From positions 1 to 64,000 of the forward strand of contig CACEDS010000004.1 of the NCBI GenBank assembly GCA_902558395.1: 64,000 bases of DNA, in the 5' to 3' direction. The position numbers were made by a program, and so were the translations under genes. Shown here in pieces: positions 47,297 to 64,000 of the stretch. This stretch comes from an uncultured SAR86 cluster bacterium (GTDB lineage: Bacteria; Pseudomonadota; Gammaproteobacteria; Magnimaribacterales; D2472). The first letter of the stretch is position 1, and each line of letters begins with the position of its first letter. The notes under the pieces are model-generated. The model worked only from the letters and a program-made list of their open reading frames with translations. It ran no database searches and was not told the origin of the DNA.

Positions 47297-50152
47297 CTAT
47301 GGTGTTATTCTAGAGCTTGTACCAAGGCCTGATCCATACACAACTGAGTTAAGCCAAAGTCTATTTGTTCCTAAACTAGAGCCTCTAAAATTAGGTTCCC
47401 CAGAGAATAATATTATTTGACCTTTACCGTATCTTTCTTGAGTTAAATAAGCTGAATTTGCAATTCTTGCAGAAGCTTCAGGCCAAACCAAACCACTCAT
47501 CCTCACGTTTAAATCATATCCTGCAGGAATATCAGACCAGTTAATAGATTTATAAATATCTTGATTAGTATTTTCGGTTAATTCACCAACCCTTATAACA
47601 GCTTTTGAACCCGAACCAGCCATTAATACAGGAAAATTTGAATAGAGAAGGGGTAAAGTATCTATTGTTCCAAATGATAGCCAATGTTTTTTATCAACTC
47701 TTCCTGAAACAAAAGCTCCTGATGGCATAAATAGTGATTGCCAGGAATCTCGTTTTTTCAATGTATCTGAATCAATTTTATTTTCAGTTTCTTCCCATGG
47801 ATATGAGATATCAGAGAAAATTTTATTATTATTCACATAATCTAAGTCTATGGATGTATTTTTTGATAAAAATTCTCTTTGTAACTTTATGTTGTAGTCA
47901 TGACTATTCTCAAATGAATCACTTATATCTTTAATGCTTGAAATTGAATTGTCAGATACAAGCATTCTTGTACTGCCATTATTAGCTATTAATGTTCCAC
48001 CTTGTTTTATCCAATCTTTCAGAACAGACATTTCAGCTTGATTAAGAGATCTATAACCACTTGGCATTATTAATGTGTTGTATCTTCTTAAATCTGCATA
48101 ACCTATCATTGATGTATTAAGTTGACTGTGTCTTATCCCTAAATGATGATCAAGTGACCACCAGCTAACACCTACATCATATGAGCTAAAACCTTCATGG
48201 CTTAATATTGCAATTTGTGGTTTATTTAGCAACCTAAAATGTCTGCCACCCCAGTCAGGTAATTCTTCAGGACCAAAACCTGTATAAAGTGATGATACTG
48301 AAACATTTAAATCTTCAGCAGTATTCTTAACTAATTGCACTAACTTAGAATTTTTAGGATTATCCATAGCTATTACAACAGGGCTTCCTCTAGATAAGCT
48401 CTTACCAGAAAGACTAATATCTTTATCAATAATTCTTACCTGAACACCTTGTTCCATGAGTCTTGCTGCAAAGGTAACTGATAGATCGTCTGTGCCATCA
48501 ACAATCCACATAATAGCCTTTTCATCAACGTCTATTTCTACAGAGGAGGGCTCCCATAACGAAAGATTTCCTTTTACGTATTCTGGGACTGTCACAGCTT
48601 CTAATCCATACATCATAGTAAAATTAAATGCAGTTGTGTCATACATAATTGACGAGCCGTTTCTTAAAGTTGCTTCTCTTTCTTTTTTAAGAACATCTTC
48701 ATCAATTTCAGCATCAAATTCTAATATAGCCGAAATTAAAGGAGCTTCGGGTTGACGATTTGGAATTATCATACTGCCGGCTGGAATATTAAATTCTTCA
48801 ACAATATCACCAGTTTGTTTTAATACATTTTTGACATTAATATTCTGTTTATTGGTGTAGATTTCGATATTTTGAGATTTTAATTTATCAGCAAGAGTGT
48901 TAATTCTAGATGAGTTTTTAGTTGGCAGTATCACAAATGTTTGATTAGCCCAATCACTTTCTTTTGATACATTTAACTTCCTTGCTTCCCAATAGTCGTT
49001 ATACATTGCCTTACTGTTAACTGACAAAGTGTTTAAATTAGTTAAGGAGCTTATAAATTGATGATGGACAGATTCTTTATACGATTGAATAGTTCCTTCA
49101 GGTCTTCGCACACCATCTTCAGCCATACGTGATTGCTCATATAGTATGCCTAAAGTACCTCTAAAATTAACATAAAATGAATAGCCTGGATATAAATCTT
49201 CATGCCATTCACCTGTATAAAAACGCCAGTTTCTTCGATCAAATTCAGATCCTTGATCTTGAGCAAATACATTTCCCCATTTCACAAGATCTCTATCCAT
49301 GTTCTTATTAATTGGCTCACGTGCAGGACCTGTCATAAAAGTATCTTGAGCACCCATTTCATGAGCATCAACAAGTATTTGAGGTTTCCATTCGTTTATT
49401 AATGATACGCGACCTTGAGTTTCAGGTTGTGTTAGATAAATCCAATCTCTATTTAAATCAAAATAATAATGGTTTGTTCTTCCATAGGGCCAGTCACCAG
49501 TATGAATTAATGATTGATCATCATAATTTGGTGCTGTTCCTCTGAACTGTTCCAGTGATTTAGTAAATCTAGATCGACCATCAGGATTCATAACTGGATC
49601 AACAATTATAATCATATTGTCTAAAAGATTCTCAACTTCTGAATCATTACTGGCTATCAGATGATAAATTAAGCCAAGCGCAGCATCTGAACCAGATGTC
49701 TCATTTCCATGAATTGAATAGGCCATCCATGCTATAGCAGGAAGAGAATCAATGATTTTTTTTGCTTCTCTATCATTAGTAATTCTTGCATCTGAAAGAG
49801 AAGACAAATTCTCTTTAATTCCATCAATTTGAGCGATATTTTCTGGAGAAGATATTATTAATGCATGAAGAGGGCGCCCTTCATGAGATACAGCATAATT
49901 TAAAACTTTAATTTTATTAGATTGTTGTTTATAGGTATTTATTGCATTTTCTATTTGTTCAGGTGAGGCGACTCTTTCGCCATAATTAAAATCAAGAAAT
50001 TCATTTGGATGATCGATCGATGGATCATAACTCCCGTTCAATATAATATCTTTATAAAGATCAGAAGAATAGCTAGTAGGTTTTTTTAAAATTTCAGCTG
50101 AGCAGTATACGGTTAATATTAATGATAATGATGTTTGTATAAGTTTTTTCAT
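47297..50152 (-). CDS. Secreted M14 family zinc carboxypeptidase, large
   Basis: A 951-residue protein with a signal peptide (about residues 1-18). The peptidase domain (about 50-400) has zinc ligands in YSIHGNETSGSD (HxxE) and the third His in VDAHEMG, DLNRDW, and the catalytic Glu in LGILYEQSRM. Later parts include a class I amidotransferase-like fold around RYNTLIMPSGYRSLNQ and a C-terminal sandwich. Such large M14 proteins act on peptides or cell wall in the periplasm. It is the last chromosomal gene before the phage block. Confidence 0.85.
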   Translation of the reverse strand: MKKLIQTSLSLILTVYCSAEILKKPTSYSSDLYKDIILNGSYDPSIDHPNEFLDFNYGERVASPEQIENAINTYKQQSNKIKVLNYAVSHEGRPLHALIISSPENIAQIDGIKENLSSLSDARITNDREAKKIIDSLPAIAWMAYSIHGNETSGSDAALGLIYHLIASNDSEVENLLDNMIIIVDPVMNPDGRSRFTKSLEQFRGTAPNYDDQSLIHTGDWPYGRTNHYYFDLNRDWIYLTQPETQGRVSLINEWKPQILVDAHEMGAQDTFMTGPAREPINKNMDRDLVKWGNVFAQDQGSEFDRRNWRFYTGEWHEDLYPGYSFYVNFRGTLGILYEQSRMAEDGVRRPEGTIQSYKESVHHQFISSLTNLNTLSVNSKAMYNDYWEARKLNVSKESDWANQTFVILPTKNSSRINTLADKLKSQNIEIYTNKQNINVKNVLKQTGDIVEEFNIPAGSMIIPNRQPEAPLISAILEFDAEIDEDVLKKEREATLRNGSSIMYDTTAFNFTMMYGLEAVTVPEYVKGNLSLWEPSSVEIDVDEKAIMWIVDGTDDLSVTFAARLMEQGVQVRIIDKDISLSGKSLSRGSPVVIAMDNPKNSKLVQLVKNTAEDLNVSVSSLYTGFGPEELPDWGGRHFRLLNKPQIAILSHEGFSSYDVGVSWWSLDHHLGIRHSQLNTSMIGYADLRRYNTLIMPSGYRSLNQAEMSVLKDWIKQGGTLIANNGSTRMLVSDNSISSIKDISDSFENSHDYNIKLQREFLSKNTSIDLDYVNNNKIFSDISYPWEETENKIDSDTLKKRDSWQSLFMPSGAFVSGRVDKKHWLSFGTIDTLPLLYSNFPVLMAGSGSKAVIRVGELTENTNQDIYKSINWSDIPAGYDLNVRMSGLVWPEASARIANSAYLTQERYGKGQIILFSGEPNFRGSSLGTNRLWLNSVVYGSGLGTSSRITP

Positions 50153-50244
50153 AGATTAATTCTAATCTAGAAAACAGAACTTATCATTCATTTATTTATA
50201 TAGAGAAATAGAAAGGGAAGCCATACTATTTATATATGAAATAA
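50153..50244. other. Host/phage junction zone
   Basis: This AT-rich gap between the start of the M14 peptidase and the first phage frame contains no tRNA and no clear att-like sequence. It should hold the promoter of the peptidase on the - strand. A 9-base direct repeat ATAATATAT occurs at 50241 and 50258 but is low-complexity. Confidence 0.4.
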
Positions 50245-50502
50245 TATATTACTTCGCATAATATATATTTAACCAAATTAGCTAAATTATCTAAATCGTT
50301 ACATAAATCTGACCAACCTGAGAGAACTGTTAGATTTAACATTTTAGGTTGTGCAAATATTTTAACTATTCCAGTTAAAAAACTCAAATCCTTTTACAAG
50401 GACGAGATAGGAACATTCATTGAAATAGCAGGCATGAGCCAGCCAATTCAAGTTCGTGATTCTATTTTTGAAATAAACAGAATGATAAACAAGGAGAGAT
50501 AA
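50245..50502 (+). pseudogene. 5'-truncated phage ORF
   Basis: A frame open from 50245 to the TAA at 50500-50502 with no ATG, GTG or TTG start before residue 60. The part from about 50278 reads as a normal basic protein end (KSLHKSDQPERTVRFNILG..INRMINKER). The stop abuts the ATG of the exonuclease gene, and its last codons supply that gene's ribosome binding site (AAGGAG), so this was a real phage gene whose start has been lost at the junction. A rare ATT start at 50248 cannot be excluded. Confidence 0.55.
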
Positions 50503-51444
50503 ATGGTTGGTAAATTAACATGGTATAGAGCAACATCATCAATAACGTGTGCATTGTTTGATAGGGCAAGGTTCTTCGATAAGCATGGTTGCTTAAAGAA
50601 GGCGATAGCTGAAAAGAATGGAACCCTAGTAGATAACTTTGTGCAAACTAATAGACAAGCTACAGGAGACTTACTTGAACCTGTATTAATAACTGAAGCA
50701 GCAAGAAGGCTAGGTATAGAGAATGTAGAGCCTGAAGTGGACTATAAAATAGACCACCCTGAATTACCTTTACAGGCTTCGTTAGATGGAAGATGTAATG
50801 TTGTTAATGTGAAAGTAGAACATAATCCTGATAATGGTATTTACCTTGTAGGACATCAAGAGCTTATATTAAATGGCGATATACCTATAGAAGTTAAATG
50901 CAGCTCTGATTTCCCATCAGTAGAAGAGCCACCTAAATACTTAGGCGTAGACCAATTACATACAAGCATGGAAATACTAAACGCTGAGTATGGAATATTG
51001 ATTGTGCTATACCAGTCAACTGATTTACGCATATACGTTTATAAACGCGATGAAGCGTATAAAGACGAACTGGCGAGAGTAGTGCTGGACTTTGATAGAA
51101 GAATAGAAGAAGAGGACTATTATCCGCCTGAGACTCCTGAACACGCAGCGACTATTTTTAGTGATGGTAATGATGAAAACGTAAAGATATTGAACGCTGA
51201 TACGCTTGATATTATCGATACAATAGAAGCATTAAAAGAAACTATGAAGATAGCTAAAGAGAAGAAGGATGAACTTATGACTGATTTAATGATGGCTATG
51301 GGTAATCATAGCAAAGCAAGAGTTGCAGAATATGAGTTGGAATGGAAAACACTACCAGCTAAAAAAGAACAGATTAAAGAAGTAACTTATAAAGCTGCAC
51401 CTGAACGTAGAGCAGGTTTTGTGAAGATAAAAAGAGTTGGATAA
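50503..51444 (+). CDS. YqaJ-like phage recombination exonuclease
   Basis: A 313-residue protein with the PD-(D/E)XK pattern of YqaJ/lambda-exonuclease proteins: GDLLEPVLITEAARRLG, the catalytic Asp in LQASLDGRC near residue 93, ExK in IPIEVKC near 130, and VDQLHTSMEI. The C-terminal 80 residues are helical and basic. It would chew 5' ends for single-strand annealing recombination. A strong AAGGAG site lies within the preceding ORF. A terminator follows. Confidence 0.8.
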   Translation: MVGKLTWYRATSSITCALFDRARFFDKHGCLKKAIAEKNGTLVDNFVQTNRQATGDLLEPVLITEAARRLGIENVEPEVDYKIDHPELPLQASLDGRCNVVNVKVEHNPDNGIYLVGHQELILNGDIPIEVKCSSDFPSVEEPPKYLGVDQLHTSMEILNAEYGILIVLYQSTDLRIYVYKRDEAYKDELARVVLDFDRRIEEEDYYPPETPEHAATIFSDGNDENVKILNADTLDIIDTIEALKETMKIAKEKKDELMTDLMMAMGNHSKARVAEYELEWKTLPAKKEQIKEVTYKAAPERRAGFVKIKRVG

Positions 51445-51446
51445 AA

Positions 51447-51513
51447 GAAGGGCAATTAGCTAAATAGAGAGTATTAGATATATGGAGAGTTTAGCATTTG
51501 CCCTTCATTTTTG
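51447..51513 (+). terminator. Terminator after the exonuclease gene
   Basis: GAAGGGCAATTAGCTAAA at 51447-51464 pairs with TTTAGCATTTGCCCTTC at 51490-51506, giving a long interrupted stem with a 25-base loop; ATTTTT follows. It ends the first transcript, and the recurring phage motif starts 8 bases later. Confidence 0.7.
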
Positions 51514-51522
51514 ATTATATTA

Positions 51523-52015: not shown

Positions 52016-52435
52016 ATGCCTATTAATTCAAGAACCAAAGGAGCAACATTTGAACGTCTAATAGTTCGTAAGATTAATGAATGTTTTGAACGTGAGGGTA
52101 TAAAAGATAGAGTTTCAAGAAACTTTGACCAATCATGGAAGGGTGGATTAGCAGACATTTATTACAAGAACTTTGCTATTGAATGTAAAAGATACAAACA
52201 ATCAAATACCAATATGTATCGCCAAGAATGGTGGGAGCAAGTTTTAAAAAGTGCTGGTGATAAATACATACCTTTACTAATTTATAAGTTTGACCGCAAA
52301 ACAATTATGGCGGTCATTCCTGCTTACTTGGTAAGCAACGCACCTAAGCACAATCAAGTTACCTATATGTGTCCCTTAGAAGATATATGTAAGGACATAA
52401 AGAATATTTTAGAGAAAGCAAATGTATCAGGATGA
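52016..52435 (+). CDS. Phage PD-(D/E)XK nuclease, Holliday-junction-resolvase-like
   Basis: A 139-residue protein. RTKGATFERLIVRKINECF, GGLADIYYKNFAIECKRYK with the D and ExK residues near 52 and 62, and WWEQVLKSAG match Hjc-like archaeal and phage resolvases. It probably clears branched DNA before packaging. It is preceded by an AAGGA site. The following small gene overlaps by 14 bases. Confidence 0.7.
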   Translation: MPINSRTKGATFERLIVRKINECFEREGIKDRVSRNFDQSWKGGLADIYYKNFAIECKRYKQSNTNMYRQEWWEQVLKSAGDKYIPLLIYKFDRKTIMAVIPAYLVSNAPKHNQVTYMCPLEDICKDIKNILEKANVSG

Positions 52436-53212: not shown

Positions 53213-55099
53213 ATGCAAGATTACGATTGGCAAAAAATAGCACCTGATGTAGCAAGACTAATACTAGGTGAACCTAAAATCCAAAAGACCAATGAATGGC
53301 GATGGAATAATAAGGGTTCACTTGTATTTAATCTTGAAACAGGACAATTCTATGACTTTGAGGAAGGTATAGGCGGTGGTGTTAAGTGGCTAATCGAACA
53401 ACATGGAAAAGATGTCTCTGAAATCGTAAAACAGTTTGGTTATGACCTTACATTACAAACCCCTAAAAACTCCATACTGAATGGTAATACCCCTATTACC
53501 AGTAATGTGAGGTCATTCACTCGAGAACAAATGGTTGACTTATATAGACAATCATCAGTAAAGGTTAAATATGCAGACAACTTTATAGTATTAAGACACG
53601 AAGGGTTACCTATGAAATATGCACCTTTTAGCTTGAATCCTAATGGCACTTGGTCAATGAAAAGACCTGAAGGGTTATTACCTATATATATTACCGCAAA
53701 TCAATTAGATAAACCTGTAATCGTTAGTGAAGGAGAGAAAGCGATGCAGGGAGCAAAACGTATCTATAAAGGCGATGTATGTTGCTGGCATGGTGGTGTT
53801 AATGCATGGAAAAAAGCAGATTGGTCACCTATATATGGTAGAGAAGTATGGTTTTGGGCTGATAACGATGAAGCAGGAGTTAAATGTGCTAATGAAATAG
53901 CAAGAGAATTAAAGGCTAATGGTTGTAAAGTTAAGGTTATTGAAGCTCCTGAACACTTTGCAGATAAAGATGATTTATGGGATGCAGCAGAACGTAATGA
54001 TTTTACGCATGATACGTTAGTTAAATACATTAATTCTTTTAAAGAAAAGAAAGAAAAAGGCTCTATAACCTTTACAAGAGCAGATGAAGTATTAACGCAA
54101 GTAACTAATCCTAAATGGCTCATAAAGGACGTATGTGAGCAAGAATCATTAATGCAGATATGGGGTTCACCTAAGAGCGGTAAGTCGTTTGTAGCTATTG
54201 CTATGAGTTGTGCTATTGCATCAGGGCAAGACTTTTATGGCAATAAAGCATTTAAGAAACCTGTACTTTATATATGCGGTGAAGGTCAGAGAGGTGTTAA
54301 AAGACGTTTATCAGCTTGGCAACAAGCACAATACAGTTTAAGTGGCATACCTTTATACCTATCAGATAGAGCAGTAAGAATAGGTGATAAGGACGATTTT
54401 GAGAGACTAACCCAAGAGATAGAAGCTATAAAAGCTGTAGAAGGCGATATTGGCATGATAGTTGTTGATACGTTTCAAAGGAATTTTGGCGGTGGTAATG
54501 AGAACTCAGCAGAAGATGTGGGCAACTTTATTCATCAATTAGATGGTTTGATTGCAACTTATGGCTGTAATGTTTGTATTGTTCACCATTCAGGACATGA
54601 AGGTAATAGAGCAAGAGGGTCAAGTGTTATAGGTGCATCTTTAGATTACGAATTTTCAGTGAAAAGAACCGATAAGAATGAGCAAATGTTTGTATCGTTC
54701 CAACAAACGCTAAATAAAGATGGTCAGGGAATGGCTGAAAAGAACTTTGTATTTACAGAGGTTGAGCTTATAGGCGAAGGATTAGAGCTTACCAGTGGTT
54801 ACTTAGAGCTTACTGACATTGATTTTAAGGCTAAAGATAAGCTGACATATAAGCAAAAATTAGTATTAGAAGCACTAGAACGTGAGTCTATATTTGCTGA
54901 TAAAGATGCTCCTGAAGAACATTATTTCTTTCCAAAAGATTTAAAAGACAAGGTTAGAGATGCTAATGGAAACATATTATCAGTCGATAGTATCAAGAAA
55001 ATTCTCTATAAATTGGTTGAATTAGAAGAAGTTAAGTATTTAGAAACAGTTGGTTATCAATCTGCTCAATATCATAAGTTAGCACCTAAGTTTGATTAG
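53213..55099 (+). CDS. Phage primase-helicase (TOPRIM plus RepA-like ATPase)
   Basis: A 628-residue replication protein. Residues 1-90 resemble a primase zinc-domain region (GQFYDFEEGIGGGVKWL) but without zinc cysteines; TOPRIM at about 165-230 (VIVSEGEKAMQGA, WADNDEAG); RepA/AAA_25 ATPase at about 300-500 with Walker A GSPKSGKSFVA, Walker B MIVVDTFQ and an HH pair in VCIVHHSGHEG; and a C-terminal winged-helix-like end. It likely primes and unwinds the origin. No DNA polymerase gene is visible, so the host enzyme may be used. It ends with TAG. Confidence 0.82.
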   Translation: MQDYDWQKIAPDVARLILGEPKIQKTNEWRWNNKGSLVFNLETGQFYDFEEGIGGGVKWLIEQHGKDVSEIVKQFGYDLTLQTPKNSILNGNTPITSNVRSFTREQMVDLYRQSSVKVKYADNFIVLRHEGLPMKYAPFSLNPNGTWSMKRPEGLLPIYITANQLDKPVIVSEGEKAMQGAKRIYKGDVCCWHGGVNAWKKADWSPIYGREVWFWADNDEAGVKCANEIARELKANGCKVKVIEAPEHFADKDDLWDAAERNDFTHDTLVKYINSFKEKKEKGSITFTRADEVLTQVTNPKWLIKDVCEQESLMQIWGSPKSGKSFVAIAMSCAIASGQDFYGNKAFKKPVLYICGEGQRGVKRRLSAWQQAQYSLSGIPLYLSDRAVRIGDKDDFERLTQEIEAIKAVEGDIGMIVVDTFQRNFGGGNENSAEDVGNFIHQLDGLIATYGCNVCIVHHSGHEGNRARGSSVIGASLDYEFSVKRTDKNEQMFVSFQQTLNKDGQGMAEKNFVFTEVELIGEGLELTSGYLELTDIDFKAKDKLTYKQKLVLEALERESIFADKDAPEEHYFFPKDLKDKVRDANGNILSVDSIKKILYKLVELEEVKYLETVGYQSAQYHKLAPKFD

Positions 55100-57969: not shown

Positions 57970-58488
57970 ATGGCTACACAAAGAGAAGTTGCAGACCATT
58001 TGGATTTATCGGTCAAAAGGGTCTCAGAACTTATTAGAGATGGTATTTTTCCTTCAAAACAAGGTAGAAGTCCTCTAAATATAGATGTTTGCAGAGTTTC
58101 ATATATTTCGTACCTTAGAAAGCTAGGTGGATATCACAAACGAAGCGGTACAGGCGATATTGCAGAAGAAAAAACTAAATTAACTGCTGCTCAAGCAAGA
58201 AAAGCAGAATTAGAAGTAGAAGAATTAGAAGGTAGCTTAATACCAGCTAAATTAGTAGAAGATACTTGGATTGACTATGTAGCTAATGCTAGAGCAAAGC
58301 TATTAGGACTACCTTCAAGAATCGCACATCAAGTTATAACAGTAGATAAGTATGCAGAAGCAGAATTAATCATAAAAGAACAAGTGCATGAAGCACTAAA
58401 CGAGTTAGCACAAAATGGAATACCTCAAAAATATAGAAAAGGTGATACAGGAGACGAATCAGACATGGACTCCACCGCCAAATCTTAA
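57970..58488 (+). CDS. Phage terminase small subunit (Nu1-like)
   Basis: A 172-residue protein with an N-terminal winged-helix part (ATQREVADHLDLSVKRVSELIRDGIF) like Nu1 of lambda and a helical LTAAQARKAELEVEELEGSLIP segment common to this family. It should bind cos and recruit the large subunit. The large subunit gene starts 74 bases before its end in another frame. Confidence 0.85.
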   Translation: MATQREVADHLDLSVKRVSELIRDGIFPSKQGRSPLNIDVCRVSYISYLRKLGGYHKRSGTGDIAEEKTKLTAAQARKAELEVEELEGSLIPAKLVEDTWIDYVANARAKLLGLPSRIAHQVITVDKYAEAELIIKEQVHEALNELAQNGIPQKYRKGDTGDESDMDSTAKS

Positions 58489-60235
58489 AATATCAAGCTG
58501 GGCTGATAACTATAGACGATTATCTCCTGAATCTTCAGCAGAAGCAGGAGCTTGGCGAACTGATAGAAGTCCATATCAAAGAGAGATAATGGATTCTTTT
58601 AATGACCCTGACATACAAAGAATTGTATTCATGAAATCTGCTCAGGTTGGTGCTACTGAAATATTGCTTAATGTGATTGGTTACTACATAGACCAAGACC
58701 CAGCTCCAATGTTAATAATGCAACCAACCTTACAAATGGCTCAAGCATTTAGTAAAGATAGACTTGCCACAATGATTAGAGATTCAGAGAAGATTAGAGA
58801 TTGTGTAAAAGACCCTAGAAGTCGTGATTCAGGTAATACAGTTTTATCTAAGAAGTTTGCAGGTGGTAATTTAAACATAGTTGGTTCTAACTCTGCATCA
58901 GGACTAGCATCAAGACCGATTAGAATTGTATTAGCTGATGAGGTTGATAGATATGAGCAATCAGCAGGAGCAGAGGGTGACCCAATATCACTTGCAACTA
59001 AAAGAACGACTACTTTTTGGAATAAAAAGATATATATGTGTAGCACTCCTACAATAAAAGGATTATCAAGAATAGAAACTGCTTTTGAAGAATCAGATAA
59101 ACGCTACTACCATGTTCCTTGTCCTGAATGTAATGAGAGCCAAGTTCTTAAATGGAAGAATGTAGTTTGGGATGAAGATAAGCCTGAAACAGCTTCTTAT
59201 GCTTGCGAACATTGCGGTTCAGTTATAGAAGAACATAAAAAACAATGGATGTTAAAAAATGGTGAATGGATAGCATCAGCACCTAAGTCAGATACAGCAG
59301 GATTTCATATATCAGAACTATATTCAGTATGGTCTACTTGGGCAGATATGGCTAAAAACTTTCTAGAAGCAAAAAAGAATCCTGAGATGTTAAAAACTTG
59401 GATTAACACTGCTCTTGGTGAGTCTTGGGAAGAACAAGGTGAAGCTGTTGAATACGAAACACTATTAGAACGTAGATTAAATTATGATTACACAACTATT
59501 CCTGAGGATGTATTAGTTTTAACTGCTGGTGTTGATACACAAAAAGACAGATTAGAATTGCAATTAGTTGGATGGGGTCACAACTACGAAGCATGGGTTT
59601 GTGATTACAAGATATTTTGGGGTGACCCAAATGCTTTTAATGTTTGGTCAGATTTAGATGCTTATTTAAAAAAGAGATTTAAAACTGAATCTGAAAGATT
59701 AATACCTATATCATGTTGCACAATCGACTCAGGTGGTCATCATACCAATATGGTTTATCAATTTACTAAACCAAGACAAGCTAGAAGAGTGTTTGCTATA
59801 AAAGGTCTATCTACAGCAGGTAAACCAATAGCTAATAGACCTACATTTGTTGGTAAAAACAAGGCTGTACTCTATGGTGTAGGCTCAGATAGTGCAAAAG
59901 AAGCTATTTTTGCAAGATTATCTACTGAACCTGAACAAACAACGTTACATTTCTGTTCAGACCTTGATGAAGAGTATTTTAAACAGCTTACAGCAGAAAA
60001 AAGGGTAACTAAGTATGTAAGAGGTAGAAAAACGCTAGTTTGGAAGCAAATTAGACCAAGAAACGAAGCATTAGATACGTTAGTCTACAATTTTGCAGCA
60101 ATTTACATCTTAAACCCTAATTTTGACTCTATTGAGAACAAAATACTTACTCAAGAGTCAAAACCAAGAGAAAAACAGCAAAATAGACCACAAAAAGGCA
60201 TAAATAGAGGTAATTTTGCTACAAATTGGAAATAA
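58415..60235 (+). CDS. Phage terminase large subunit (GpA family)
   Basis: A 606-residue GpA-type terminase: WADNYRRLSPESSAEAG and YQREIMDSF at the N-terminus, the ATPase with KSAQVGATEILLN (Walker A variant) near residue 78 and Walker B IVLADEVDRY, a CxxC pair in CPECNESQ and CEHCGS, and a nuclease part with GVDTQKDRLELQLVGWG. It cuts cos and pumps DNA into the head. The start overlaps the small subunit; no strong binding site is seen, so coupling is likely. Confidence 0.93.
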   Translation: MEYLKNIEKVIQETNQTWTPPPNLKISSWADNYRRLSPESSAEAGAWRTDRSPYQREIMDSFNDPDIQRIVFMKSAQVGATEILLNVIGYYIDQDPAPMLIMQPTLQMAQAFSKDRLATMIRDSEKIRDCVKDPRSRDSGNTVLSKKFAGGNLNIVGSNSASGLASRPIRIVLADEVDRYEQSAGAEGDPISLATKRTTTFWNKKIYMCSTPTIKGLSRIETAFEESDKRYYHVPCPECNESQVLKWKNVVWDEDKPETASYACEHCGSVIEEHKKQWMLKNGEWIASAPKSDTAGFHISELYSVWSTWADMAKNFLEAKKNPEMLKTWINTALGESWEEQGEAVEYETLLERRLNYDYTTIPEDVLVLTAGVDTQKDRLELQLVGWGHNYEAWVCDYKIFWGDPNAFNVWSDLDAYLKKRFKTESERLIPISCCTIDSGGHHTNMVYQFTKPRQARRVFAIKGLSTAGKPIANRPTFVGKNKAVLYGVGSDSAKEAIFARLSTEPEQTTLHFCSDLDEEYFKQLTAEKRVTKYVRGRKTLVWKQIRPRNEALDTLVYNFAAIYILNPNFDSIENKILTQESKPREKQQNRPQKGINRGNFATNWK

Positions 60236-60325: not shown

Positions 60326-60922
60326 TTGTCTAACGCATTTGATAGAGAAAATTACCCACAAAAAGAACCAAGTACACTGGTGCTTGGTGATTATTGGGCA
60401 TGGAAACGTGACGATTTAGCTGATACCTATCCTATAGGCTCATATGCACTTACTTATGAGTTTCACAATGATGTAGGCGGTGGCGGTACAAAACAATTTA
60501 CCCTTACTGCTATAGAAGCAAACGATACTTATTACATAGAAGCACCATCATCATCAACTACAGCTTATGCAGTTGGCGATTATATTTGGGAAGCATACAT
60601 AACAAAAACAGCAGATTCTAATAGAGTTATGGTTGATTCAGGTAGAACAACTATCTCACAAAATCTAGCTGATACTAATGCTGATTTAAGAAGTCACGCT
60701 AAAAAATGTCTTGATGCAATCGAAGCTGTTTTGGAGAATCGTGCCAATATAGACCAATCATCAATGTCTATAGCTGGTAGGTCATTATCAAGAATGTCAT
60801 TTGATGAACTTAAAAACTTTAGAGATTACTACAAAACTGAATATCTCAAAGAAATCAAACTAGCAAGAATCAGAAATGGGCAAGGAACTGGCAACACGCC
60901 AAAGGTAAGGTTTGTTAAATAA
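60326..60922 (+). CDS. Head-tail joining protein, gpW-like C-terminus with extra N-terminal domain
   Basis: A 198-residue protein with a TTG start preceded by ACGAGG. Residues 1 to about 115 look like an all-beta domain (LTYEFHND, QFTLTAIEAN, YYIEAP). Residues 125-198 look like gpW: LRSHAKKCLDAIEAVLENRA, SMSIAGRSLSRMSFDELKNF. The place between terminase and portal is that of W in lambda. Lambda gpW itself has only 68 residues, so the N-terminal part is an addition. Confidence 0.65.
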   Translation: MSNAFDRENYPQKEPSTLVLGDYWAWKRDDLADTYPIGSYALTYEFHNDVGGGGTKQFTLTAIEANDTYYIEAPSSSTTAYAVGDYIWEAYITKTADSNRVMVDSGRTTISQNLADTNADLRSHAKKCLDAIEAVLENRANIDQSSMSIAGRSLSRMSFDELKNFRDYYKTEYLKEIKLARIRNGQGTGNTPKVRFVK

Positions 60923-62418
60923 TGGCATGGTACAACAGAATATTAGGAATCAACGAACCTAAAAAGAAAAAAAGACAAGCATTTAGAAGAAGCTACTCAG
61001 GAGCTAATACAGGTAGATTATTTGCAGATTTTGTAACTACATCTACAAGTGCCGATGCTGAAATAAAAGATAACATAAGAATATTAAGAGATAGAGCAAG
61101 AGAATTAGCAAGGAACGATAGCTATATTGCTAGATACTTAAACCTGATGGTATCTAATGTTATCGGTAAGCATGGCATAAGAGTTAGCTCTAAGGCTAGG
61201 AACGATAATGGTTCTTTAGACATTGGAGCTAACCTGCTAATTGAAACAGCATGGAAAGAATGGGGTCAGGTTGGTAATTGTACGACTAATGGCAGATTAT
61301 CCTTTTTAGATTGTCAAAAAATATTTGTTGAATCGCTATGCAGAGATGGTGAAGTATTAATTAGAAAGATAAAAGACAATAAATCACCATTTGGTTTTAC
61401 TTTACAATTTTTAGAAGCTGACCATTTAGACGAAACAAAAAACGATTTTTATAAAGCTACAGGAAACCGAATTAAGATGGGTGTTGAGGTAGATAAATAC
61501 GACAGACCAGTAGCTTATCACTTATATAAAGACCATCCATATGACAGAGTTTATTTAGCTCAAGCTCAACATATAAGAGTACCAGCAGATGAAATAATAC
61601 ACGCTTATTTACCGCAAAGAGCAGAACAAACTAGAGGTGTTTCTTTAGTTGCTACTGCTATGGCTAATGTCAAAATGTTAAATGGTTATTTAGAAGCTGA
61701 AATAGTAGCTGCTAGAGTTGGTGCTTCAAAAATGGGGTTTTTTACTTCAAGTGATGGCGATGGCTATGTGGGTGATGGTGAATTTGAAGATACTTTTAAT
61801 CCAACAACTAATGCTCAAGCTGGCGTATTTGAACAGTTACCAGCAGGCATGGATTTTAAAGCATTTGACCCAACGCACCCTACATCTGCATTTGATTCTT
61901 TTACAACTAGCGTATTAAGAAGTATTGCATCAGGTTTAAATATTTCTTATCACTCGCTATCAAATGACCTTACATCAGTTAATTACAGCTCAATAAGACA
62001 AGGTGCTTTAGAAGATAGAAGCATGTATCAGATATATCAACAGTTTGTAATTGAGCATTTTGTAAATCCAGTATTTCAATCATGGTTAGAAATGGCTATA
62101 TCAACAGGTTATATCAATTTACCAATAAGTAAGTTTGATAAGTTTGCTAGAGCTATAAACTTTATACCAAGAAGTTTTGCATGGATTGACCCTTTAAAAG
62201 AAATGCAAGCTAACGTAATAGGATTACAAAATGGAACACTTACTTATTCTGACATTAGTGCTAGCTATGGCAGAGATACTGAAGAACTTTTTGAACAACA
62301 TCAAAAAGAAATAGAACTAGCTAAACAATACGATATAGAACTAGCTTATCAACCATTTGGTCAGAAACTACCTGTAGAAGCAAAGATACAAGGCGGAGAA
62401 GAGGAAGAAGATGCCTAA
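60922..62418 (+). CDS. Phage portal protein (lambda gpB family)
   Basis: A 498-residue portal: FRRSYSGANTGRL at the N-terminus, RARELARNDSYIARYLNLMVSNVIG near residue 60, CRDGEVLIRK, FLEADHLDE and QTRGVSLVATAMANVKML. It forms the ring at the head vertex through which DNA passes. It overlaps the gpW-like gene by one base and the next gene by 8. Confidence 0.92.
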   Translation: MAWYNRILGINEPKKKKRQAFRRSYSGANTGRLFADFVTTSTSADAEIKDNIRILRDRARELARNDSYIARYLNLMVSNVIGKHGIRVSSKARNDNGSLDIGANLLIETAWKEWGQVGNCTTNGRLSFLDCQKIFVESLCRDGEVLIRKIKDNKSPFGFTLQFLEADHLDETKNDFYKATGNRIKMGVEVDKYDRPVAYHLYKDHPYDRVYLAQAQHIRVPADEIIHAYLPQRAEQTRGVSLVATAMANVKMLNGYLEAEIVAARVGASKMGFFTSSDGDGYVGDGEFEDTFNPTTNAQAGVFEQLPAGMDFKAFDPTHPTSAFDSFTTSVLRSIASGLNISYHSLSNDLTSVNYSSIRQGALEDRSMYQIYQQFVIEHFVNPVFQSWLEMAISTGYINLPISKFDKFARAINFIPRSFAWIDPLKEMQANVIGLQNGTLTYSDISASYGRDTEELFEQHQKEIELAKQYDIELAYQPFGQKLPVEAKIQGGEEEEDA

Positions 62419-64000
62419 ACCAACTGAAGGAATGAAAGTAGAAGCACAAAGAGGTCTTGATTGGCGAGAAGAGCATGGTCGTGGTGGCACTAGAGTTGGT
62501 GCTGTTAGAGCAAGACAAATAGTAGCTGGTGAAAATTTATCTGACGATACAGTGAAAAGAATGTACAGCTTCTTTTCAAGACATGAAGTAGATAAGCAAG
62601 CAGAAGGTTTTAAACAAGGTGAAGAAGGTTATCCATCAAATGGCAGAATTGCATGGGCATTATGGGGTGGTGATGCTGGTTATAGATGGTCAAAAACAAA
62701 AGTAAATCAAATGAAAAATGAAAAAAGTTTTGATTCAAAAGAATCAGAAAAACATCCACTAAATAGTGAGGAGAAAGCTATGAATAAAGAAGATAGACAT
62801 ATCCTCAATGTGAGCGAGACAGACAACTCTGTAGTTGTTGAATTTGCAAAGCATGAGGATGTAGAACATGAAGGTGAAGAACTAGAAGCAACTGACGAAG
62901 TTTCTATGATTGAATCTGAAGAAGAGAGAAAAGTAATTGATATGCCTATGAAATATAGAACTATTGATTTATCAAAACACTCTTATTTAGATGAAGAAAA
63001 AAGAATGGTTCGTATAGGTGTATCTAGCGAAGAACCTGTAGAGAGAAGTTTTGGCATGGAAGTGCTAGGACACTCAGCCGATGATATAAACATGGAGTTT
63101 ATTTCATCAGGTCGAGCACCTCTTTTGTTAGACCATGATATGGAAAAGCAAATAGGTGTTATAGAAGAATTCAAACTAGACGAGACGGCAAAAAGGACAA
63201 CTGCTGTAGTCAGATTTGGTAAATCTGCTTTAGCTCGAGAAGTGTTTGAAGATGTGGTTGATGGTATTCGTATGAATATATCTGTTGGCTACAGAGTCGA
63301 TAACTTAACAAGAATGAATAATGAAGATGAAGTCTACTATAAGGCTCAATGGACTCCTATGGAAGTTTCTTCTGTAAGTGTACCTGCTGACCAAAGTAGA
63401 TTAGTCGGTGTTGGTCGTTCTAAAGATAAACAAAACACACAAACAACAAAGGTGAAAATAATGGAAAACGAAAAACAAGAAATTAATCTTGATGAAGTTA
63501 GGTCACAAACTGTTGCTGAAGCTAAAGCTGAATTTAAAAGAAATTCAAAAGAAATCTTAGATTTAGCTGTAAAACACAACAAAAGAGATTTAGCTGACAA
63601 AGCGATTAGTGATGGTATCTCTGTTGAAGAATTTAGAGGTGTATTATTAGAAAATATTTCTAACAACACTCCTTTAGAAACTCCTTCAGAAATTGGCATG
63701 ACTAAAGAAGAAGTCAGAGACTTTAGTTTGATAAAAGCAATTCGTGCTTTAGCAAACCCATCTGACAGAAGAGCACAAGAAGATGCTGCATTTGAATTTG
63801 AATGTAGTGCTGAAGCTGCTAGACAATATGGTAAAGATGCTCAAGGTATCATGTTACCAGCAGACGTTCTAAGAAATTGGAGCAAAAGAGACCTTAACAC
63901 ATCTGATGATTCAACTTTAGTAGCTGAAGATTACAGAGGTGGCGATTTTATTGATGTATTAAGAAACGAATCATCAGTAATGCAAGCTGGTGCAACAATG
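62411..64000 (+). CDS. Prohead protease fused to major capsid protein, 3' part outside the window
   Basis: An open frame of 530 codons without a stop. Residues 13-100 are a small conserved domain (LDWREEHGRGGTRVGAVRAR, RHEVDKQAEGF, EEGYPSNGRIAWALWGGDAG). Residues 180-335 are an S78-like prohead protease with catalytic His242 (LLLDHDMEKQIG) and Ser291 (IRMNISVGYRV), ending EVSSVSVPAD. Residues 351-430 are a helical delta/scaffold-like part, then the start of an HK97-fold capsid protein (VLRNWSKRDLNT, DYRGGDFIDVLRNES). In-frame starts with binding sites occur at 62780 (GAGGAG) and 63461 (AAGGTG). Confidence 0.85.
   Translation, partial: MPKPTEGMKVEAQRGLDWREEHGRGGTRVGAVRARQIVAGENLSDDTVKRMYSFFSRHEVDKQAEGFKQGEEGYPSNGRIAWALWGGDAGYRWSKTKVNQMKNEKSFDSKESEKHPLNSEEKAMNKEDRHILNVSETDNSVVVEFAKHEDVEHEGEELEATDEVSMIESEEERKVIDMPMKYRTIDLSKHSYLDEEKRMVRIGVSSEEPVERSFGMEVLGHSADDINMEFISSGRAPLLLDHDMEKQIGVIEEFKLDETAKRTTAVVRFGKSALAREVFEDVVDGIRMNISVGYRVDNLTRMNNEDEVYYKAQWTPMEVSSVSVPADQSRLVGVGRSKDKQNTQTTKVKIMENEKQEINLDEVRSQTVAEAKAEFKRNSKEILDLAVKHNKRDLADKAISDGISVEEFRGVLLENISNNTPLETPSEIGMTKEEVRDFSLIKAIRALANPSDRRAQEDAAFEFECSAEAARQYGKDAQGIMLPADVLRNWSKRDLNTSDDSTLVAEDYRGGDFIDVLRNESSVMQAGATM

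Follow-up and report, generated by a model that had tools for sequence, protein, structure and literature searches.

Evidence for a tailed temperate phage integrated at the dif site of an uncultured SAR86 bacterium

The attP sites of TLC-phi, a filamentous satellite phage, and of GGI, a secretion-system island, have a XerC arm and a central region like those of dif, together with a divergent XerD arm (PMC5357621). LME-1 of Legionella is a phage-like element (IMEX) that integrates at the host dif (PMC9765430). The NO16-type vibriophages are tailless dsDNA temperate marine phages with dif-like sites, and integration by XerCD has been proposed for them (PMC9966536). Filamentous phages, microviruses, tailless phages, islands and one phage-like element are the Xer-exploiting elements described in the open-licence literature; a tailed-phage lineage at dif was not found there. 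Measured against this literature, a dif-integrated tailed prophage is an extension of the known Xer-exploiting elements.

Here, we analyzed the first 64,000 bases (the window) of the 72,734-base contig C4 from an uncultured SAR86 cluster bacterium, a streamlined marine gammaproteobacterium whose genome comprises 1.29 Mb in 8 contigs. With a probability of roughly 0.88, a joint in this window is the left attachment site, attL, of a temperate tailed phage that was integrated at dif via the host Xer recombinases and whose own attP gene was split. The phage site has the makeup of the TLC-phi and GGI attP, namely a dif-like XerC arm and central region and a divergent XerD arm. As with these elements (IMEX), integration would occur at the chromosomal dif without an integrase of the element's own. 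In contrast to them, the phage is tailed, with terminase, portal, head and tape-measure genes, and its attP lies inside an ORF. LME-1, likened here by description, is also phage-like and also has the host dif as target, but it depends on the single recombinase XerL and on another dif. The NO16-type phages are likewise temperate marine dsDNA phages with dif-like sites, whereas they are tailless, have a double-jelly-roll capsid and belong to another virus class. The nearest isolated phage by the exonuclease (29% identity) is the Methylophilales phage MEP301, which also has a 'recombinase family protein' gene just upstream. It differs in its structural genes (tail tubular and internal virion proteins). 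MEP301 was considered as a dif phage and rejected, its best dif-like match having 8 mismatches of 26.

On the host side and at the joint, the window contains the following features.

47297-50152, minus strand: M14-type zinc carboxypeptidase gene of the host (Pfam PF00246), left neighbour of the host dif site
50153-50246, no strand: host intergenic DNA left of dif, 94 bases
50245-50502, plus strand: 3' part of the attP ORF, 85 codons plus stop, its start apparently severed by integration
50251-50269, plus strand: attL core ACTTCGCATAATATATATT, which spans the XerC arm and the central region and reaches into the XerD arm; common to host dif and phage attP

An earlier note on this DNA had described a host/phage junction at which a phage frame lacks its start, and this was borne out. 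The open frame at 50245-50502 (plus strand) has no usable ATG, GTG or TTG near its beginning. It ends with TAA at 50500-50502, and the ATG of the exonuclease gene follows directly at 50503. Relatives of the exonuclease are present in 26 viral contigs, and in the phage relatives the upstream frame is complete, with a start and about 123 codons that span the core. Host DNA reaches up to the joint. Similarity to the phage contigs begins at the core, with its first base between 50239 and 50253 and, for the majority of contigs, at 50246/50247. The note had also seen no tRNA, and indeed the window contains none, nor any other RNA target. Its statement that no att site is present did not hold: the 16-mer TTCGCATAATATATAT at 50253-50268 is half of dif. 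Since the att site is half of dif, neither a tRNA nor a nearby integrase is expected.

The dif site of E. coli reads GGTGCGCATAA-TGTATA-TTATGTTAAAT. By comparison with this site, TTCGCATAATATATAT covers the inner XerC arm and all six bases of the central region, plus one further base. In the dif sites of relatives of the host, it likewise corresponds to the inner XerC arm, the central region and the first XerD-arm base. The copy at the joint is the sole perfect one in the 1.29 Mb genome. Complete sites were searched with TTCGCATAATATATATTATGTTAAAT, allowing up to three mismatches, in 41 genomes (40 relatives and the window's own). Exactly one match each was obtained in 31 of the 41. With the same search, a complete dif was not found in the window's own genome, where the exact half-site occurs at the joint only.

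The gene neighbourhood was compared as well. The M14 peptidase encoded at 47297-50152 has 951 residues. This peptidase gene is also found close to dif, with matching orientation, in four relatives (G018, G021, G033 and G036). Further genes next to dif in relatives have homologues at 39-50 kb of contig C4. Thus, the host side of the window is the left flank of dif. Together with the core, the final ~60 bp of 50153-50246 resemble the empty dif flanks of two genomes of the same genus, G008 and G015 (blastn 84-86% over 63-64 columns including the core). A search of the own genome for the right-hand dif neighbours revealed weak, probably paralogous matches near the end of contig C1 and nothing else.

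On the phage side, 25 sites (24 viral loci and the window) were aligned on the core. The 15 columns TTCGCATAATATATA, which make up the XerC arm and the central region, are fixed or differ in one sequence. Synonymous third positions in the S-H-N-I-Y frame share this near-invariance, whereas the sites become less conserved as soon as the XerD arm begins. As judged from the alignment, the phage site is under selection as DNA. All close phage relatives carry TTCGCATAATATATAT at the joint, or a copy with one or two changes; the change to TGCGCATAA in L024 is a dif variant of some relatives. In the more distant L025 and L026, the site lies 122 bases before the exonuclease gene and has a fuller XerD arm. 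Host side, phage side and common core together support a prophage end, which the earlier note had listed among its options.

A free relative among the 26 viral contigs, G204, repeats 127 bases exactly at its two ends and so represents a circle of 32,199 bp. Its attP ORF is unbroken. The note had regarded a circular phage with this gene intact as a refutation of a prophage. This argument is invalid, since such a circle is the expected unintegrated attP form.

A second joint is found in the independent contig L022. Its first 55 bases agree with the left flank of the empty dif of G010 in 53 of 55 positions, and then the core follows. Right of the core, L022 is identical to the free phage L021 (200 of 200 bases). 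L022 shows no relation to L021 on the host side of the core (15/55), nor to G010 on the phage side (10/30). Empty site (G010), joint (L022) and free phage (L021) were thus all observed. The L022 joint is an independent second attL and speaks strongly against a one-off chimera in the window. An assembly or amplification chimera had been proposed in the note as well; it would have formed between free phage and host at their common 19-base sequence. In principle, an assembler using very short words would give exactly such a joint from the common core; attR is missing, and the phage is common in the form of free virus contigs. However, a stretch of 19 bases is shorter than the usual assembler words. 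L022 combines a diverged phage with another host flank, the host side of the window is a dif neighbourhood, and no intact dif was found elsewhere in the genome, as expected for an occupied site. The conserved dif half within the phages would need an explanation in any case. We therefore consider a chimera very improbable and keep to an attL of a prophage at dif.

To the right of the joint, phage genes follow, all on the plus strand.

50503-51444, plus strand: RecE-like/YqaJ-type exonuclease (phrog_434, E 2e-25), with relatives in 61 viral loci
52016-52435, plus strand: RusA-like Holliday junction resolvase (phrog_244)
53213-55099, plus strand: primase/helicase (phrog_906 and others)
57970-58488, plus strand: terminase small subunit (phrog_57)
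58415-60235, plus strand: terminase large subunit (phrog_15, E 5e-265)
60326-60922, plus strand: head-tail joining protein (phrog_5774)
60922-62418, plus strand: lambda-type portal protein (TIGR01539 above cut-off; phrog_21)
62411-64000, plus strand: start of the major head protein gene, which matches head/protease families

In the remainder of the contig, which ends at base 72734 (L002), genes for major tail, tape measure, distal tail and tail fibre were found. With terminase, portal, major head protein and tail tape measure, the phage belongs to the Caudoviricetes. In total, the phage genes run for 22.5 kb from the joint to the end of C4 and end inside the tail-fibre gene. The stop of the contig at L002:8734 (contig base 72734) falls into this repetitive gene of the prophage, and most likely the assembly broke off there because the gene is variable. 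By comparison with the G204 circle, ~10 kb of the prophage should lie beyond the contig end. This part is expected to hold the tail fibre, holin, lysozyme, a serine-recombinase-like gene, a MarR-like regulator and the start of the broken ORF. With 22.5 kb of ~32 kb present before the contig end, the element might be taken for a decayed, defective prophage remnant at dif. Against this, the genes for replication, packaging, head and tail in the assembled part have open frames, most of them with 75-98% identity to free-phage relatives, and the missing part falls at the contig end, not at host DNA. A remnant is accordingly a poor candidate, and the element is better read as a temperate phage in its integrated form. 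Directly behind the exonuclease gene, at 51444-51521 of the window, lies a variable slot that is empty in this phage. The same slot is filled in L005:1744-3855, L012:3041-4639, L014:2048-3523, L020:6069-6716 and L004:5939-6967. Proteins from the slot of several relatives read like cytosine DNA methyltransferases or other proteins.

We also searched for the other end of the prophage. The contig ends inside a tail gene of the prophage, and neither attR nor the right-hand host flank was found. For the rest of the prophage, no phage-protein match was obtained in the ends of contigs C1-C3 or in all of C5-C8, and the recombinase-like family had no match anywhere in the genome. An exact full dif is present in 14 viral contigs, and in none of them is it joined to the left side of the phage. 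The contigs retrieved with the recombinase-like protein were attP forms or ended before the site, and no attR was among them. In the genome contigs searched, no further integrated copies were detected. In the rest of the order, the exonuclease gave only three matches, all weak and partial, so that integrated copies are rare among the genomes searched. The left end of the integrated element was seen, and its right end is not assembled.

Next to the site, the recombinase had to be assigned. A search for a tyrosine integrase (Phage_integrase, PF00589) detected 14 of 14 controls but had no match in 15 phage records, among them the complete circle G204; for the present prophage, the result is limited to the assembled part. 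The host genome holds two PF00589 genes and no more. One of them is best named XerD, above the cut-off; the other scores best as XerC (330.3 bits vs a cut-off of 335.15). The phage gene nearest to an integrase (L006:3083-3784) encodes a protein that weakly resembles serine integrases in structure (E 4e-4, low TM-score). It is conserved and lies near attP, ~1 kb upstream, and its product could in theory catalyze the integration at dif in place of the host Xer proteins. In the alignment of the family, however, the expected catalytic serine and arginine positions are not conserved as we read it, there is no Pfam recombinase match, and the core common with the host is exactly the XerC arm plus the central region. 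Integration by the phage protein thus has a very small chance of being correct. Because the phage records lack PF00589, the host has two Xer genes and the serine-like protein is without the conserved catalytic pattern, we infer that the host XerC/XerD are the best-supported agent of integration.

The course of integration may be pictured as follows. Inside the ~123-codon ORF just upstream of the exonuclease gene, the phage carries attP, whose XerC arm and central region repeat those of dif while its XerD arm is degenerate. Host XerC and XerD would act on dif and attP and join host to phage. The 3' part of the ORF stays beside the exonuclease gene at attL. Its 5' part would come to lie at the far end, attR, and is predicted to be fused there to the host XerD arm TTATGTTNAAT, which would rebuild a working dif. 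The integration would presumably be reversible. By analogy with TLC-phi and GGI (PMC5357621), attL would bind XerD poorly, and the rebuilt dif at the right end would let the cell keep dimer resolution.

A wider reading, which we offer tentatively and against which the odds seem to stand, is that a widespread marine lineage of tailed phages without an integrase of its own enters lysogeny through the host dimer-resolution system and uses the insertion as a switch. The attP ORF would belong to a gene run leading to exonuclease, resolvase and primase. Integration would split it and sever the replication genes from the upstream promoters; excision would reconnect them. The idea that this splitting acts as a lysogeny switch is attractive but hypothetical. 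Prophage finders that rely on an integrase or a tRNA would miss lysogens of a tailed lineage using dif, and dif joints would be a direct way to assign such viral contigs to uncultured hosts. Such a lineage would also permit testing whether the lysogeny decision is tied to the division-linked recombination of the host.

Some further observations concern the phage relatives. Four distant loci (L117, L119, L130 and L131; 28-30% exonuclease identity) have weaker dif-like strings such as CTCGTATAATATATGTATGTTAAAT, judged by eye, ~1.1 kb upstream of the exonuclease gene. These strings may be attP sites suited to different hosts. Further exact copies of TTCGCATAATATATAT are present at L003:2941-2956 and 2962-2977, L021:2933-2948 and L025:3127-3142, with weaker ones in L012, L019 and L110. 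These copies have the orientation of the attP core and precede it by ~1.7-1.8 kb, immediately ahead of the serine-recombinase-like gene; the two in L003 are 21 bases apart. With such extra copies, Xer could be able to excise the recombinase-regulator segment; alternatively, the copies could serve regulation. In L013:185-847, the attP ORF is partly duplicated in tandem, with two SHNI copies and one mismatch in the upstream core. This duplication may have been left behind by a recombination that was imprecise or took place twice.
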